A stretch of 64,000 bases of DNA from Rheinheimera sp. 4Y26 (lineage in GTDB: Bacteria; Pseudomonadota; Gammaproteobacteria; Enterobacterales; Alteromonadaceae). The position numbers and the translations under genes were made by a program. Shown in pieces: positions 26,994-32,520 of this stretch. The DNA lies in contig NZ_JAOBWS010000016.1 of assembly GCF_025245835.1 (NCBI RefSeq), positions 1 to 64,000 of the forward strand, in the 5' to 3' direction. Numbering within the stretch: position 1 is the stretch's first letter; each line of letters begins with the position of its first letter. Below the pieces are notes generated by a model. It was not told the origin of the DNA. It saw nothing but the letters and a program-made list of their open reading frames with translations, and made no database searches.

Positions 26994-27000
26994 ATTTTAA

Positions 27001-27036
27001 ACTAAAAAGTGGCTAAAAATGCCACTTTTTAGTTTT
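27001..27036 (+). terminator. Rho-independent terminator after dusA
   Basis: ACTAAAAAGTGGC/GCCACTTTTTAGT, a 13-bp perfect stem with a TAAAAAT loop and TTT after it, 8 bp from the stop codon. Confidence 0.92.
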
Positions 27037-27060
27037 GGTCAATTTGGCTACTTTGCCAAA
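27034..27060 (+). promoter_or_regulatory. Candidate upstream activator site 1 plus adjacent palindrome
   Basis: TTTGGTCAATTT (27034-27045) matches two copies upstream of the next sigma-54-type promoter and lies 87 bp before the GG of the promoter at 27120. It runs directly into a TTTGGC-N6-GCCAAA palindrome (27043-27060). The spacing suits an enhancer-binding protein; the identity of the activator is inferred. Confidence 0.45.
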
Positions 27061-27119
27061 AAAATAAGTGAATCCAGTGAATGTTGTTTAAAATCATGTA
27101 GTTAAAATTGTTTTTTAGG

Positions 27120-27136
27120 TTGGCATAGCAATTGTA
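27120..27136 (+). promoter_or_regulatory. Sigma-54 (RpoN)-type promoter 1
   Basis: TTGGCATAGCAATTGTA: GG at 27122-27123 and GT at 27134-27135, separated by exactly 10 bases, the -24/-12 geometry of RpoN promoters. The -12 GT in place of GC also occurs, as I recall, in psp promoters of E. coli. Expected start is near 27147, giving a leader of about 37 bases before the ATG at 27184. Confidence 0.7.
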
Positions 27137-27183
27137 ATAACAGATTGTCGTTCGTTAATTAAATTGCCAACAAGGAAACTATC

Positions 27184-27453
27184 ATGAAAACTTTAAACAC
27201 TGCTTTACTGGTTACTACGCTGATGTTTAGTTCTGTAAACGCTTTTGCTGCTGAACCTGCCACCGAATTATCTTCTCAGCTGACTCAGGTTGTGACCAGT
27301 CAGGTGATGGAAGTCAGCCAAAATATTCAGCAACAAATTGCTGCCTCTATTGAAGCCACAGTCGCTGAAATGATTGTTGGCATTGAAGACACACTGAGCC
27401 AGGCGCCGGCCTCAGGCAACACAACAGAGCAGTCTGTTGCTGCAGTGGAGTAA
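27184..27453 (+). CDS. Small exported protein of unknown function
   Basis: An 89-residue protein with a clear signal peptide (1-22, cleavage likely after AFA), leaving a mature protein of about 66 residues rich in Gln, Ser, Val and Ala. The stretch LSSQLTQVVTSQVMEVSQN and on to EDTLSQ looks like one or two amphipathic helices, suggesting a periplasmic helical protein that may oligomerise or contact a membrane. There are no cysteines. I do not recognise the family. It is the first gene behind a sigma-54-type promoter and is followed after 3 bp by a 42-residue membrane ORF. Confidence 0.75.
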   Translation: MKTLNTALLVTTLMFSSVNAFAAEPATELSSQLTQVVTSQVMEVSQNIQQQIAASIEATVAEMIVGIEDTLSQAPASGNTTEQSVAAVE

Positions 27454-27456
27454 CGC

Positions 27457-27585
27457 ATGCTGATCACACCTATCGAGTTGCTGGCGCTGTTTTTAATGCC
27501 GGTGCTGAGTGTGTTTGGTATCTGGTTATGTTCGCTCTGGTTGTTGCCAAACACTGATATTCCCCCTAAAACCCGGTCTTTGTAG
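27457..27585 (+). CDS. 42-residue single-pass membrane protein (unannotated small ORF)
   Basis: ATG at 27457 lies 3 bp after the preceding stop codon, so translation would be coupled. The product (MLITPIELLALFLMPVLSVF and on to a tail NTDIPPKTRSL) has one strongly hydrophobic helix, about residues 6-31, and a short polar, basic tail. The hydrophobic helix is loosely reminiscent of PspB, but too short to assign. The stop codon TAG lies inside the loop of the terminator at 27568. The reading frame and placement are seen; the claim that it is translated is inferred. Confidence 0.55.
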   Translation: MLITPIELLALFLMPVLSVFGIWLCSLWLLPNTDIPPKTRSL

Positions 27586-27603
27586 TACCGGGTTTTCTTT
27601 TTC
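27568..27603 (+). terminator. Rho-independent terminator overlapping the small ORF stop
   Basis: AAAACCCGGT/ACCGGGTTTT, a 10-bp perfect stem with a 9-base loop (CTTTGTAGT), followed by CTTTTTC. The loop contains the stop codon of the 42-residue ORF, so a terminating ribosome would cover the hairpin. Confidence 0.88.
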
Positions 27604-27639
27604 TGAATTTTCCTGCTGTAGCTATCTCACTTTTCTTCA

Positions 27640-27671
27640 TTTAGTCAATTTCATCATTTTTTAGTCAAATT
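27640..27671 (+). promoter_or_regulatory. Tandem candidate activator sites 2a and 2b
   Basis: TTTAGTCAATTT (27640-27651) and TTTAGTCAAATT (27660-27671) are spaced exactly 20 bp, about two helical turns. The nearer copy is 88 bp from the GG of the promoter at 27747. They share TTTRGTCAAWTT with site 1 at 27034. Confidence 0.5.
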
Positions 27672-27746
27672 TTGTTAAGTGTGATACTGCTCATTTTGCC
27701 TTCTTTAAATAATTTATATAAAACAATGGCTTATGTTTGTTTGTGG

Positions 27747-27763
27747 TTGGCATGGCTTTTGTA
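27747..27763 (+). promoter_or_regulatory. Sigma-54 (RpoN)-type promoter 2
   Basis: TTGGCATGGCTTTTGTA: GG at 27749-27750 and GT at 27761-27762 with 10 bases between. It is nearly the same core as promoter 1. Expected start is near 27774, ahead of the PspC-domain gene at 27813. Psp genes are the classic RpoN/PspF targets, which supports the call. Confidence 0.72.
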
Positions 27764-27812
27764 CCTTGTTATTTGAATGAATCATTTAACTTAGACAACG
27801 CCGAGGTTAGCT

Positions 27813-28019
27813 ATGAACAGAAGCAATCATCACAACTGGTACTGTAATAAAGCCCATAAAAAAATTTCCGGAGTTTGTGCAGGTTTAGCCGCTTATTATC
27901 AACAGCCCAGATGGTTAGTGCGTGTGCTGGCTATCTTGTTGTTACTGACTTTCCCTGTTGCAGCTGTTGCCGCTTATTTGCTGGCCGCTTGCCTGTTACC
28001 AGATCGTTATGTGATCTAA
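27813..28019 (+). CDS. Short PspC-domain membrane protein
   Basis: A 68-residue protein consisting almost only of a PspC domain: KKISGVCAGLAAYYQQPRWLVRVLAILLLL, then a second hydrophobic stretch ending AACLLPDRYVI. E. coli PspC is about 119 residues; here the periplasmic part is missing, a form seen in other short PspC-domain proteins. PspC family members sense inner-membrane damage and bind PspA. It is the first gene behind sigma-54-type promoter 2 and is separated by 16 bp from the next gene. Confidence 0.82.
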   Translation: MNRSNHHNWYCNKAHKKISGVCAGLAAYYQQPRWLVRVLAILLLLTFPVAAVAAYLLAACLLPDRYVI

Positions 28020-28035
28020 ATGGGGATGAGATAAG

Positions 28036-28491
28036 ATGAAGGCATTTCAGTCACAGGAGTCCGTTATGCCTTTGTTGTTTGCCTTCATCATGTTATTTAG
28101 TAGTTTTGTTGTCCAGGCCGCGCCAGTGGAGTTTCTGAATGCGACGGTGCGTCAGCCGCTCCCGGGAAAAAACCTCAGTGCCGGTTATTTTTCTGTGGTG
28201 AATTCCTCCGATAAGGCAGTAACCCTGGTTGCAGCCAGCAGCCCTTGGTTTGAAAGAGTAGAATTGCATCAGCACAGCATGCATAACGGCATGATGCGGA
28301 TGGAAAAAGTCGATAGTTTTGCCGTTCAGGCCGGCGAGCAGCTGCATTTGCAGCCGGGTGGTTTGCATCTGATGTTATTTGCGCCTAAAAATGAATTAAC
28401 CTTAGGTGCCATAGTGCCTATCCAAATCAGCGCGGCCGATGGTCAGCAATGGCAAGTCTCGGCGGTTGTCACCAAAATCCCAACCCAATAA
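28036..28491 (+). CDS. PCu(A)C-type periplasmic copper chaperone
   Basis: A protein of about 140-151 residues with an N-terminal export signal (hydrophobic MPLLFAFIMLFSSFVVQAA). The PCu(A)C copper site is visible as H-Q-H-S-M-H plus M-M-R-M (about residues 78-92) and the later GGLHLMLF. Such proteins deliver Cu(I) to the CuA or CuB site of cytochrome oxidases or bind copper in the periplasm. Two starts are possible: ATG 28036, which keeps a lysine in the signal n-region, and ATG 28066, which has a better AGGAG site. It sits in a tight array with its neighbours (gaps 16 and 12 bp). Confidence 0.82.
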   Translation: MKAFQSQESVMPLLFAFIMLFSSFVVQAAPVEFLNATVRQPLPGKNLSAGYFSVVNSSDKAVTLVAASSPWFERVELHQHSMHNGMMRMEKVDSFAVQAGEQLHLQPGGLHLMLFAPKNELTLGAIVPIQISAADGQQWQVSAVVTKIPTQ

Positions 28492-28503
28492 CCGGAGTGA
28501 CAG

Positions 28504-29481
28504 ATGCAAAAAGTGAAACTGGCAGTCCTGCTCAGTAGCCTGGTGTTGATATTGTTTTATGCCATGGCGCTCTGGTACAGCAGTGAACCTGATACTTTTG
28601 ATGTGATGGCTGAAGCAAATCAGGCTGCACAGGGTGTTAAACCCGCCGTTGGTTATACCACCACCCATACCCTGGTGCACGTCACTGAAGTATTACTTCA
28701 CAAATCCGGAGGTTATATTTCCAACGACTTACTGCCGCCTTTTAGCATGCTGGATAATATGCCAGCCTGGGAGTTTGGCGCGTTAGAAATGGTGCGGGAC
28801 CTGGCTTTATCGATGCGCACCGATATCAGCCGCTCTCAGTCCCAATCGGTGGAAAATTCTTTTCTGAAACTGGCACAGCCAAAACTGAATATCGACCATC
28901 GCAGTTGGGCTGTACCTGCCGCTGAAGATGAATATGCTGAAGCTTTGCGTTTATTGCGCTCTTACCGTCAGGCGTTAAATGATCCAAACAACAGAGATCA
29001 CCAATTTTATGCCCGGGCCGACAACTTAAGGGATTGGCTGAAAGCGGTGGAAAAACGCCTGGGCAGTTACAGTCAGCGGTTAAGTGCCAGTGTGGGGCAA
29101 GACAGGTTAAATACTGACCTTGCCGGTGATGCACAGGCGCGTCAGTCAACCAACACACCGGCCGAGTTAATGATTAAAACCAGTTGGTGGCGGATTGATG
29201 ATGAGTTTTATGAGGCCAGAGGCGCATCCTGGGCGCTGCTGCATTTTTTAAAAGCCATTGAAGTTGATTTTGCCGATGTACTGGCCAAAAAAAATGCCAC
29301 TGTCAGTTTGCAGCAGATCATCCGCGAGCTTGAAGCCACCCAACAAACAGTCTGGAGCCCGATGGTGCTAAACGGCAGTGGTTTTGGTCTGCTCGCCAAT
29401 CACTCGCTGGTCATGGCAAACTATATCTCCAGGGCCAACGCAGCTCTGATTGAACTGACCGAATTATTGTCGCAAGGATAA
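28504..29481 (+). CDS. DUF2333 family inner-membrane protein
   Basis: A 325-residue protein with an N-terminal membrane anchor (about residues 6-24) and a large, mostly helical periplasmic part. It resembles DUF2333, a family found in gammaproteobacteria with no assigned role, through SEPDTFDV near the anchor and the GGYISNDLLPP and MPAWEFGALEMVRDLALSMR segments (about 68-105). No catalytic motif is evident. It is probably co-transcribed with the PspC-domain and copper-chaperone genes upstream and with the outer-membrane protein gene 3 bp downstream. Confidence 0.72.
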   Translation: MQKVKLAVLLSSLVLILFYAMALWYSSEPDTFDVMAEANQAAQGVKPAVGYTTTHTLVHVTEVLLHKSGGYISNDLLPPFSMLDNMPAWEFGALEMVRDLALSMRTDISRSQSQSVENSFLKLAQPKLNIDHRSWAVPAAEDEYAEALRLLRSYRQALNDPNNRDHQFYARADNLRDWLKAVEKRLGSYSQRLSASVGQDRLNTDLAGDAQARQSTNTPAELMIKTSWWRIDDEFYEARGASWALLHFLKAIEVDFADVLAKKNATVSLQQIIRELEATQQTVWSPMVLNGSGFGLLANHSLVMANYISRANAALIELTELLSQG

Positions 29482-29484
29482 CGC

Positions 29485-30228
29485 ATGAAAATTTTATTAC
29501 CGCTGTTTGCTGCCACGCTGTTTGTGACCAGTCCGCTGGTCACTGCCGATGTGCTGGGTGTGACTGTGGGGGCTGAATGGTGGCAAGCCAACCCTGAGGG
29601 GCGGGCAGGGGATACCGGCTTTAGTCAGTCACTACATTTTGATGATGACAGTCACAGTGCTTTTTATGCGGCATTTGAACATCCGATCCCGTTGTTGCCA
29701 AACGTGATGCTGCGCCGTCAAACCCTGAGTTTTCAGGGAGACACCCGTTTAGCAGGCACATTACAGCTGCATGACATGGTGTATGCCGCACAAAGCCAGG
29801 TGAATAATCATCTGAGCCTTGAATATACCGATGCCAGTATGTATTACGAACTGCTCGACAACGATATTCTGAGTGTGGATCTGGGCGTAAGTGCCAGATT
29901 TCTGCAAACTGATGTCAGTATTACTCAGGGCGGAACGGTCGCGCGTGGCGTATCAACACCCTTGCCGATGTTGTATGCCAATGCAGTCGTGGGCGTGTTT
30001 GGCACCAACTCCAGTCTGTTTTTTAATGGTAACTATGGTCGTTATGATGGTCATCAGATGTCGGATCTACGCGCTGGTTTTGCTTATGAATGGATCGATC
30101 TGGCGGCATTTTCGCTATCGGTGAAGTTAGGGGTGCAGCGACTGGATCTGGACCTGAATGCCGAAGATCGGATGGATGTTGATTTACTGGCCGATGGTGT
30201 CTTTCTCGGTCTGGAAGCTGATTTTTAA
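29485..30228 (+). CDS. TIGR04219-type outer-membrane beta-barrel protein
   Basis: A 247-residue protein with a signal peptide (about 1-21, ending VTAD) and alternating hydrophobic/polar strands ending in F, the pattern of a small outer-membrane barrel. GVTVGAEWWQANPEGRAG after the signal and the C-terminal LADGVFLGLEADF fit the TIGR04219 family. Function is unknown. It is the last gene of the apparent operon from 27813, with a 3-bp gap to DUF2333. Confidence 0.75.
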   Translation: MKILLPLFAATLFVTSPLVTADVLGVTVGAEWWQANPEGRAGDTGFSQSLHFDDDSHSAFYAAFEHPIPLLPNVMLRRQTLSFQGDTRLAGTLQLHDMVYAAQSQVNNHLSLEYTDASMYYELLDNDILSVDLGVSARFLQTDVSITQGGTVARGVSTPLPMLYANAVVGVFGTNSSLFFNGNYGRYDGHQMSDLRAGFAYEWIDLAAFSLSVKLGVQRLDLDLNAEDRMDVDLLADGVFLGLEADF

Positions 30229-30360: not shown

Positions 30361-32520
30361 ATGAAGCAGCTTTTTATTCGCCCTCTGTGGCCCCTGATGT
30401 TGGCCATCGTTGTTGTACTCTCTCTGGTGGCGTCCTGGTTTTCGTTACAGCTGTGGCAGCAACAACAGCATACCGCGTATTTACATCAGCTGAGCCGTCA
30501 TGCTGCGTTATTAGCTATGCATCCGCTGCGTGAGCAGAATTCTCAGGCGTTGAGCCAGACTTTACAAGCCTTACAACAACATAGCGTTTTGCCATTACAG
30601 GCTATGGCGGTGTACGACAAAAACCAACAATTGTTTGCTGCCACCGCGGGGTCAGAAGAGGTATTGAGTAACTATTCGCCATTACCTTCAGCGACACAGC
30701 CTGTGGTTGTTGCTGACGGTATGCTGCTGTTTAGTGTACCTGTCTGGGCTGATGTGCAACAGCAGGGGCGTCATGATTTACCTGTGCCAGCCATCAGTTC
30801 GGAACAACTGGGTCATTTGTTGTTGGTGGCCGGACCTTCTTCTGCAGTGCCTTTTTGGTTGATGCTGCCGATGTTGTTACTGGTGTTGCTGGCAGCTTTG
30901 TTGCTTTATGGCTGGCGGCAAAAAAAACAACAGAAAAGAGCGCGTCAGCAGCTGTTATTAAGTCAGCAACTGCAGCAGGGCTGCGTTGCCGATGTGCAGG
31001 GGCACGACTTTGCGCTGTTGATTGACGCCTGGCAACAGCAGCAGCAACGCCATCAACAGCAAGTACGGTCGGTAGCCCGTGATGCTGAATTGCGGTTACA
31101 ACAGCAGGAGCAGCAGCATGCTCATACCGCCGAAAACTTATTACAACTGCAACAAAGCTACCAGCAGTTGAAACTGCACAGCCAATCCTGCGATCAGCAA
31201 TTAAAGTTCTGGCTGGAGTTATGTCACAGATCGGACTCGCTGAGTGCGGTGGATTTGCGCAGTAAAATTCAGGCATTACAGTTGTTGTCTGAGCTGCACG
31301 CCGCTGATTTTTCCCTGCAGCCGGACCATTTTTGGTTACCTGACTGGCTGGCGCAGCAGGCACCCCATTGGTTTAGTGACAATAAACTGCCGGAACAGTT
31401 TGTTTTTGACGAAGATCCTCAGGCTTATCAGTTCAAAATGAACATTGATACCCGGCTGCTCAGTGTGCTGTGTCATATCTTCAGCAGTTATTGTCAGCAG
31501 GCTGCCGCTGGTCAGGATATTTTGTTCAGCTACCGCTTTTGCGAAGTGCCGCAAAAACAACTGAAACTCACCTTTAAATATGCCGGCGCCGGTTTTTCGG
31601 CGCGCTGGCGTCAGTTGTTGCTGGCGCAGCCGGACAGCGAGTTGACACTGGACGATGTAGAAGCTGAAGTTGCCCGCAGATTGTTGCAAGAGCTGCACGG
31701 CAGTATTTCATTAAACTCGCTGGAAGACCTGGGCACCCAGCTGGATATTCTGCTGCCGGTTTCCTGGCAAAAAACCAGTCAGTCTAAATTATGCCAGTCC
31801 ATTTTGGTGCTGGATGAGCGGGCCTGTCGTTTGCCTCTGCTGAAACAGTCGCTGGCGGCTATTGGTGAACAGGTCCATAGTGTAGCAACACTGGCAGCCC
31901 TGCCTGAAGCTGTGCAGTTACGCCTGGTGGATTTAGTGATAGTGCTGCTGCCGGACAGCTGCGCCACCCTGCATCAGGATGCCGCGCAGCTGACGACACT
32001 TGCAGAGCGTTATCAGCTGCTGTTTTTTACCTCTGATAAAGCCAGACAGTTGTGGCAGCCATTGCTTGCAAGCCGGTTATTACCTGTACCTATGTTGCTC
32101 AGTCATGTCAGCCATGCGTTGCAGCACCCGAATGAGCTTGGTAATCAGCAGCTGCTGGTGGTGGATGATAATCTGACCAACCTGAAATATGTGCAGGCGA
32201 TGTTGTCAGGTGGCGGCTTGCGCATTGATATTGCCATGACAGGGCAAGACGCCATTAAAATGGCCAGCAATAACAGATATCAGCTGATCCTGATGGATAT
32301 TCAGCTGCCGGATTTAGCCGGTACTGAAGTGACCAAAAGGATCCGGCAACTGAGGCATCATCAGCACACCACTATTTTGGCTTTTACTGCGCACGCTTTA
32401 CCGGATGAGATTGCCGGTTTCCGCCTGGCAGGCATGGATGATGTACTGATTAAACCATTGGATACCCGCAAGATTGCCCATATTCTGGCTAAACTCAGCC
32501 CGGCTGATGAAATACGATAA
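30361..32520 (+). CDS. Degenerate membrane hybrid sensor kinase with C-terminal receiver
   Basis: A protein of about 719 residues arranged like BarA-type hybrid kinases: membrane helix (about 8-28), short periplasmic loop, second helix (about 162-184), long Gln-rich coiled-coil (about 190-290), a region in the place of HisKA/HATPase, a vestigial receiver, and an intact receiver (LLVVDDN to IKPLD). The phospho-acceptor aspartate is in LILMDIQLPD (about residue 646). The H-box is eroded (CHRSDSLS where HELRTP is expected), and the ATP-binding N and G boxes are not recognisable, so kinase activity is unlikely. Start is uncertain: ATG 30361 or GTG 30328; neither has a strong ribosome site. It overlaps the convergent gene by 26 bp. 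Confidence 0.75.
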   Translation: MKQLFIRPLWPLMLAIVVVLSLVASWFSLQLWQQQQHTAYLHQLSRHAALLAMHPLREQNSQALSQTLQALQQHSVLPLQAMAVYDKNQQLFAATAGSEEVLSNYSPLPSATQPVVVADGMLLFSVPVWADVQQQGRHDLPVPAISSEQLGHLLLVAGPSSAVPFWLMLPMLLLVLLAALLLYGWRQKKQQKRARQQLLLSQQLQQGCVADVQGHDFALLIDAWQQQQQRHQQQVRSVARDAELRLQQQEQQHAHTAENLLQLQQSYQQLKLHSQSCDQQLKFWLELCHRSDSLSAVDLRSKIQALQLLSELHAADFSLQPDHFWLPDWLAQQAPHWFSDNKLPEQFVFDEDPQAYQFKMNIDTRLLSVLCHIFSSYCQQAAAGQDILFSYRFCEVPQKQLKLTFKYAGAGFSARWRQLLLAQPDSELTLDDVEAEVARRLLQELHGSISLNSLEDLGTQLDILLPVSWQKTSQSKLCQSILVLDERACRLPLLKQSLAAIGEQVHSVATLAALPEAVQLRLVDLVIVLLPDSCATLHQDAAQLTTLAERYQLLFFTSDKARQLWQPLLASRLLPVPMLLSHVSHALQHPNELGNQQLLVVDDNLTNLKYVQAMLSGGGLRIDIAMTGQDAIKMASNNRYQLILMDIQLPDLAGTEVTKRIRQLRHHQHTTILAFTAHALPDEIAGFRLAGMDDVLIKPLDTRKIAHILAKLSPADEIR

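Follow-up and report, generated by a model that had tools for sequence, protein, structure and literature searches.

Results

The DNA studied here is a 64,000-nucleotide stretch from Rheinheimera sp. 4Y26 (RefSeq assembly GCF_025245835.1, contig NZ_JAOBWS010000016.1), which we call the window and which is contig C7 of a host genome of 4.08 Mb in 33 contigs. Between positions 27,034 and 30,228 it holds two adjacent transcription units that, judged by their control regions, are very probably targets of the phage-shock activator PspF acting with sigma-54. The parts of both units all lie on the + strand. Unit 1 opens with a sigma-54 -24/-12 promoter at 27120..27136 (TTGGCATAGCAATTGTA, GG-N10-GT, with its GG at 27122) and encodes two small products, both characterized from sequence: U1a (27184..27453, 89 amino acids), a putative exported helical protein without a named family and with nothing over the cut-off in Pfam or NCBIfam, and U1b (27457..27585, 42 amino acids), a putative single-span membrane protein in which a single proline is invariant across 13 analogues. 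Profile comparison of U1b with PspB by hhalign gave a probability of 2.7%, and we do not claim a relationship between them. The terminator hairpin of unit 1 (27568..27596; fold -15.4 kcal/mol, z -4.1) overlaps the end of U1b and was not picked up by a simple terminator scan. Unit 2 has a promoter of its own at 27747..27763 (TTGGCATGGCTTTTGTA, GG-N10-GT, GG at 27749) and comprises four genes separated by gaps of 16, 12, and 3 bp. These encode PspC2 (27813..28019, 68 amino acids; PF04024 at 54.2 bits for a cut-off of 25, and under the equivalog cut-off of TIGR02978, at 52.6 versus 104), a PCu(A)C copper chaperone, hereafter PCuAC (28036..28491, 151 amino acids; PF04314, 108.4 bits), a DUF2333 protein with a hydrophobic helix at its N terminus (28504..29481, 325 amino acids; PF10095, 481.4 bits), and a TIGR04219 outer-membrane beta-barrel protein (29485..30228, 247 amino acids; 194 bits, cut-off 105). 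Both promoters are of the -24/-12 form GG-N10-G(C/T/A).

An earlier note on this DNA had described the two promoter cores at 27120 and 27747 and, upstream of them, the octamer TTRGTCAA at 27035 (87 bp before the GG), 27661 (88 bp), and 27641 (20 bp farther out), all of which direct reading bears out. The same is true of the gene families and gaps that it gave for unit 2, on the evidence of the open reading frame (ORF) list and domain scores, and of the unit-1 terminator, which is indeed a stable hairpin.

The host genome carries pspF (551.2 bits) with a divergent pspA at G000:C27, unlinked to the window, as well as rpoN (507.5 bits), both over cut-off. Between pspF and pspA, in the host genome as well as in its relatives, we found a 17-bp operator, about TTRGTSAAWTTSRCTAA, and on sequence comparison the window motif is the left half of this operator as it occurs in the host, in relatives, and in E. 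coli. The host psp promoter, which the earlier note had wished to see checked for the motif, has two operators at a spacing of 20 bp, situated 112 bp before TTGGCAAGAAACCTGAAT. We built an operator weight matrix from a training set of 30 psp loci, one of which (L053) was dropped, its upstream region having been wrongly cut; the 29 usable loci yielded 19 different distal sites and 23 different proximal ones, with no window site among them, although the consensus by which sites were picked was written after the window motif was known, a mild circularity. A further match lying exactly 20 bp on is one of the three best in 21 of the 29.

When all 127,968 positions on both strands of the window were scored, the distal-site matrix ranked the unit-1 operator (27035..27051, TTGGTCAATTTGGCTAC, 87 bp 5′ of the GG) first, at 18.6, and the unit-2 distal operator (27641..27657, TTAGTCAATTTCATCAT, 108 bp 5′ of the GG) 21st, at 9.9; the combined matrix ranked the latter first (15.6) and the former second (15.3). 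The unit-2 proximal operator (27661..27677, TTAGTCAAATTTTGTTA), exactly 20 bp inside the distal one and with a weak right half, scored 5.1 and 4.3 (ranks 118 and 257), and 27641 and 27661 together form the best + strand pair at a spacing of 20 under either matrix. Unit 1 has one strong operator, without a good partner at 20 bp. In the E. coli psp region TTAGTGTAATTCGCTAA scores 20.8, with a weaker ATGATGAAATTCGCCAC (5.4) exactly 20 bp upstream, and the host PspF and that of E. coli share 58% identity across the aligned region and have LTYHQ-x-R near the C terminus in common. The earlier note had supposed that the activator may be some protein other than PspF, since the motif seemed unlike the PspF site; the first and second ranks obtained with the psp-derived combined matrix speak against this.

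The combined pattern TTRGTCAA-N60-90-TGGCAY-N5-TTG has three matches in the whole genome, namely, both units and a site upstream of an ABC-2 permease gene, and its reversed control has none. The bare 17-bp pattern without a promoter is weak evidence, because in zero-mismatch scans of relatives the control counts were often similar to the real ones. Among its matches in the host genome, L122, L124, L125, and L127 to L130 lie within ORFs of at least 100 codons and were rejected as chance, and L126, which has no promoter-like site, was set aside.

Conservation was examined in 80 loci, the best 80 of 541 confirmed DUF2333 relatives from a contig scan, drawn from Pseudoalteromonas, Alteromonas, Colwellia, Shewanella, Rheinheimera, Arsukibacterium, and others; the nearest genus-named DUF2333 proteins among these 80 are those of Arsukibacterium tuosuense (70% identity) and Rheinheimera maricola (69%). 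A pair was counted where an operator scoring at least 11 stood 60 to 145 bp before a sigma-54 site scoring at least 16; these thresholds were chosen by eye, and the promoter score was a hand-made one. Because the loci are related by descent, the resulting figures should be read as a pattern rather than as strict probabilities. There were 79 pairs on the coding strand, compared with 1, 1, and 0 in the reverse, forward-swapped, and reverse-swapped controls, and at least one pair was present in 62 of the 80 loci. Put differently, 79 of 158 coding-strand sigma-54-like sites had an operator, while 60 column-permuted matrices gave a mean of 2.4 and a maximum of 14. For 73 of the 79, the best second operator was found at a distance of 20, 21, or 22 bp to one side or the other. 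Operator-promoter distances showed a 10.7-bp periodicity (R 0.69; the largest of 2000 random sets reached 0.38), which is what binding to a single helical face would produce, although the 20- to 22-bp pairing contributes to this period. It could be argued that the similarity of the motifs is a coincidence in AT-rich intergenic DNA: the motifs are short, the bare 17-bp pattern has 12 matches in the host genome versus 8 for its control, and the exact unit-1 site is not kept in a sister genome. Against the control and permutation counts just given, however, we regard coincidence as scarcely credible.

In most relatives the unit-1 operator lies about 112 bp out, and the same place in the window scores poorly; the 27035 site overlaps the proximal operator position of the relatives. 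By alignment, the place of their distal operator is covered in the window by a hairpin at 26999..27035 (fold -20.2 kcal/mol, z -7.1), the probable terminator of the upstream dus gene, and holds GTGGCTAAAAATGCCAC at 27009-27025. The distal operator has probably decayed here, because this sequence scores 3 or less with both matrices, and the unit-1 sites look like a case of operator turnover. Upstream of unit 2, TTTTTAGTCAAATT occurs in 6 of 10 aligned genus sequences, at the proximal place in three and at the distal place in three. The unit-1 promoter retains TTGGCA and TTG in 9 of 9 aligned sequences. Between operator and promoter stand candidate sites for integration host factor (IHF) at 27092..27104 in unit 1 (AATCATGTAGTTA, matching a relaxed consensus at 8 of its 9 specified positions) and at 27721..27733 in unit 2 (AAACAATGGCTTA, 9 of 9). 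An IHF-like sequence was found upstream of 60 of 81 promoters (37 of the 60 at one place) versus 27% of shuffles, with a consensus that was relaxed after some sequences had been viewed. The leader of unit 1 (27134-27183, beginning TAATAACAGATTGTCGTTCGTTAATT) is near-identical in five genus members, more so than the spacer upstream of it, and perhaps constitutes a leader RNA element.

The presence of pspF was examined in 50 of the 80 loci (all 18 without a pair and 32 of the 62 with one), representing 48 genomes. Of 31 promoter-positive genomes, 30 had it, versus 11 of 17 promoter-negative ones (p 0.0055, a value that, like the phase test above, overstates certainty, since related species are not independent and the pairing feeds the phase). 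PspA2 (a second PspA), PspC2, and U1a went undetected in the six loci from pspF-less genomes, one of which, L236, has only 0.9 kb upstream. Within the genus, U1a and PspC2 are both present in 10 of 22 genomes and both missing from the other 12; an operator-promoter pair over threshold accompanies them in 9 of the 10 (not L092) and is found in none of the 12, while pspF is over cut-off in all 22. This genus-level scan used looser thresholds (36 forward and 5 reverse matches), and some of its genomes recur in the 80-locus scan. The 12 genomes that have pspF yet lack the extra targets amount to a natural experiment.

An alternative is that another enhancer-binding protein with a PspF-like operator activates both units. 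The host genome has 12 more matches to the PspF model, all below its cut-off, and the window copies of the left half TTRGTCAA vary less than those at psp sites. However, the operator, the pair spacing, and the range of distances are those of psp, and the presence of the operator-promoter pair tracks that of pspF, so that we consider this alternative unlikely and PspF the probable activator.

Two further places in the host genome hold candidate targets. A Toastrack (DUF4097) gene on C31 (34.3 bits, cut-off 22.9), whose product reads as a putative lipoprotein, is preceded by GTGGTGAAAATCACTAA 89 bp before ATGGCATCTAATTTGCGT; nine subclade genomes have the gene, and in 7 of these an operator scoring above 10 and a promoter precede it, an arrangement seen in none of the 12 others. 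On C33, an ABC-2 permease/ATPase pair has a promoter scoring at least 16 in 10 of 10 subclade genomes, with operator scores of 8.1 to 16.2 (above 9.5 in 6 of the 10), and the permease was not found in the other 12 genus genomes at an E value of 1e-20.

Discussion

In the current study, we examined the control regions of two small envelope operons and found in them the operator class of the phage-shock response. The earlier note's proposal of a sigma-54, enhancer-dependent envelope regulon over both units, linked to the Psp response by PspC, is supported by these comparisons, and the conservation that it had proposed to look for is seen in many related genomes, where the motifs precede the module. 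The parts of our reading that the sequence supports are the identity of the operator, the architecture of the control regions, their conservation, and the presence of pspF and rpoN. Presumably, PspF, encoded beside pspA elsewhere in the genome, would bind operators that are usually paired ca. 20 bp apart and would remodel sigma-54 RNA polymerase at the -24/-12 elements, with the intervening DNA probably bent by IHF. The genes would then rise upon damage to the inner membrane or loss of proton-motive force, and their products may protect the envelope, PspC2 presumably at the inner membrane; PCuAC perhaps supplies copper to oxidases.

The known PspF regulon of E. coli is very small, consisting of psp and pspG, and IHF has a role at E. 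coli psp. The window locus resembles pspABCDE and pspG in having the same operator class, a sigma-54 promoter, and, in unit 2, a second but weak site 20 bp away; a candidate IHF-like sequence lies in between, and the locus encodes a PspC-domain product. However, unlike E. coli psp, it has neither PspA nor a recognizable PspB, and it encodes U1a, PCuAC, DUF2333, and an outer-membrane barrel. Compared with the host's own pspF-pspA locus, the architecture of promoter and operator pair (in unit 2, with one weak site) is alike, but that locus encodes a canonical PspA and has GA rather than GT in its -12 element. A PspC domain is matched at three places in the host genome: beside pspA, in the window, and on C30. 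The last (L020:7598-7828, G000:C30) lies in a 3.2-kb locus (L003) that lacks TTRGTCAA.

Several observations weigh against PspF control or restrict its scope. One promoter-positive genome, G105, has no pspF in a sequence of only 2.1 Mb, and G047, which is 85% complete, has no pspF over the cut-off, yet carries PspA2-PspC2, an operator, and a weak promoter. No operator-promoter pair was found in 18 of the 80 loci, six of which carry PspC or U1a; negative loci with short upstream sequence include L169, L215, and L236. In the sister genome G018, TTGATGAATTTTTCTAC stands in place of TTGGTCAATTTGGCTAC and scores 7.2 to 8.2. The window spacings of 87, 88, and 108 bp are about 4 bp off the family phase (about 91, 101, 112, 123, and 133), and the right half of the unit-2 proximal site at 27661 is poor. 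Finally, an antisense ORF of more than 200 codons parts PspC2 from PCuAC in 15 of the 36 loci that have both, so that the PCuAC-DUF2333-barrel part is not general. These loci are all from Colwelliaceae or Shewanella, the one intervening ORF that was read is enoyl-CoA-hydratase-like, and where such an ORF intervenes, the genes on the PCuAC side need not share the promoter.

Family and order loci differ in the gene order behind the promoter. Four of them (L102, L104, L109, and L112) have U1a, PspA2, a small membrane protein, and PspC2 behind the promoter; three (L108, L111, and L113) have U1a, PspA2, and PspC2; and others (L103, L106, L107, L116, and L119) are like the window, with U1a, a small membrane protein, and PspC2 but no PspA. 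U1a analogues sit behind the promoter in many relatives. In Pseudoalteromonas loci, U1a was undetected and PspA2 comes first, except in L178, where PspC alone was detected. As a rule, PCuAC, DUF2333, and the barrel stand farther along in all of these loci. No PspA was found among the ORFs and domains of the window units, and many relatives have a second PspA at this place. With its two promoters and no PspA2, the window locus is not a canonical psp operon; from its gene content and control sites it is best understood as a second psp-like operon in variant form, with two PspF-type promoters, from which PspA2 was presumably lost in this lineage rather than never gained. In L114 and L189, tandem U1a-type genes each have their own operator and sigma-54 promoter.

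The earlier note also placed copper handling within the response. The operon layout of the host genome fits this, but not all relatives have a layout that does, given the antisense ORF described above. With PCuAC and DUF2333 side by side, unit 2 might be primarily a copper or respiratory-metal operon whose link to Psp is incidental; we think this very improbable and retain PspF control as the preferred explanation.

As to DUF2333 itself, the fold comparison of a structure model (pLDDT 80.8) with an imelysin/EfeO-like fold is no more than suggestive, and a comparison with PDB sequences gave no matches. HxxE is the metal motif of imelysins. The window protein has HVTE, but other aligned rows have K, F, E, or R in place of the H, and we do not claim a metal site. 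In an excerpt of a benzalkonium study, TIGR04219 appears in a table row with a negative value, which is uninformative for this regulon (PMC10272739).

A broader proposal, to which we would give about an even chance, is that PspF of the Alteromonadales runs a multi-operon envelope regulon with a second Psp system (often U1a first, then PspA2 and PspC), to which the subclade of the window adds PCuAC, the imelysin-like DUF2333, the barrel, the Toastrack lipoprotein, and the ABC-2 exporter. If so, damage to the inner membrane would trigger a response extending from the cytoplasm to the outer membrane. In this scheme, U1a may act in the periplasm as a sensor or effector of a kind that E. coli lacks. 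A conserved second PspF locus in this order would also offer testable functions for DUF2333, TIGR04219, and the U1a family; it would hint at the route by which the signal of inner-membrane damage gets to the outer membrane.

In the text available from one paper on Psp partners, the neighbours of Psp proteins repeatedly include Toastrack proteins and ABC transporters, and Toastrack is predicted to be intracellular (PMC11237479). Similarly, the Toastrack and ABC-2 permease genes of the host bear PspF-type sites, but the link here consists of similar operators rather than a shared operon, and the host Toastrack is a putative lipoprotein. The main text of that paper, in the portion available, does not mention DUF2333, copper, Shewanella, Pseudoalteromonas, or Colwellia. 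A literature passage states that descriptions of the PspF of the Psp response are confined to Enterobacteriaceae, while an excerpt of a Shewanella oneidensis study has pspF and pspABC annotated (PMC2262068). PspF is unmentioned in PMC5343134 and PMC3223726, and among the papers listed by searches of the open-licence literature no account of this regulon was seen.

Directly 3′ of unit 2, positions 30361-32520 encode a response-regulator-domain protein with a sub-threshold sCache match. In relatives, an operator and a sigma-54 promoter also stand before a lipoprotein gene that is followed by a putative RND-type pump ORF (L145, G009), and before a gene for an exported protein of 277 amino acids (L153, G007); the genes at both places are candidate further targets.

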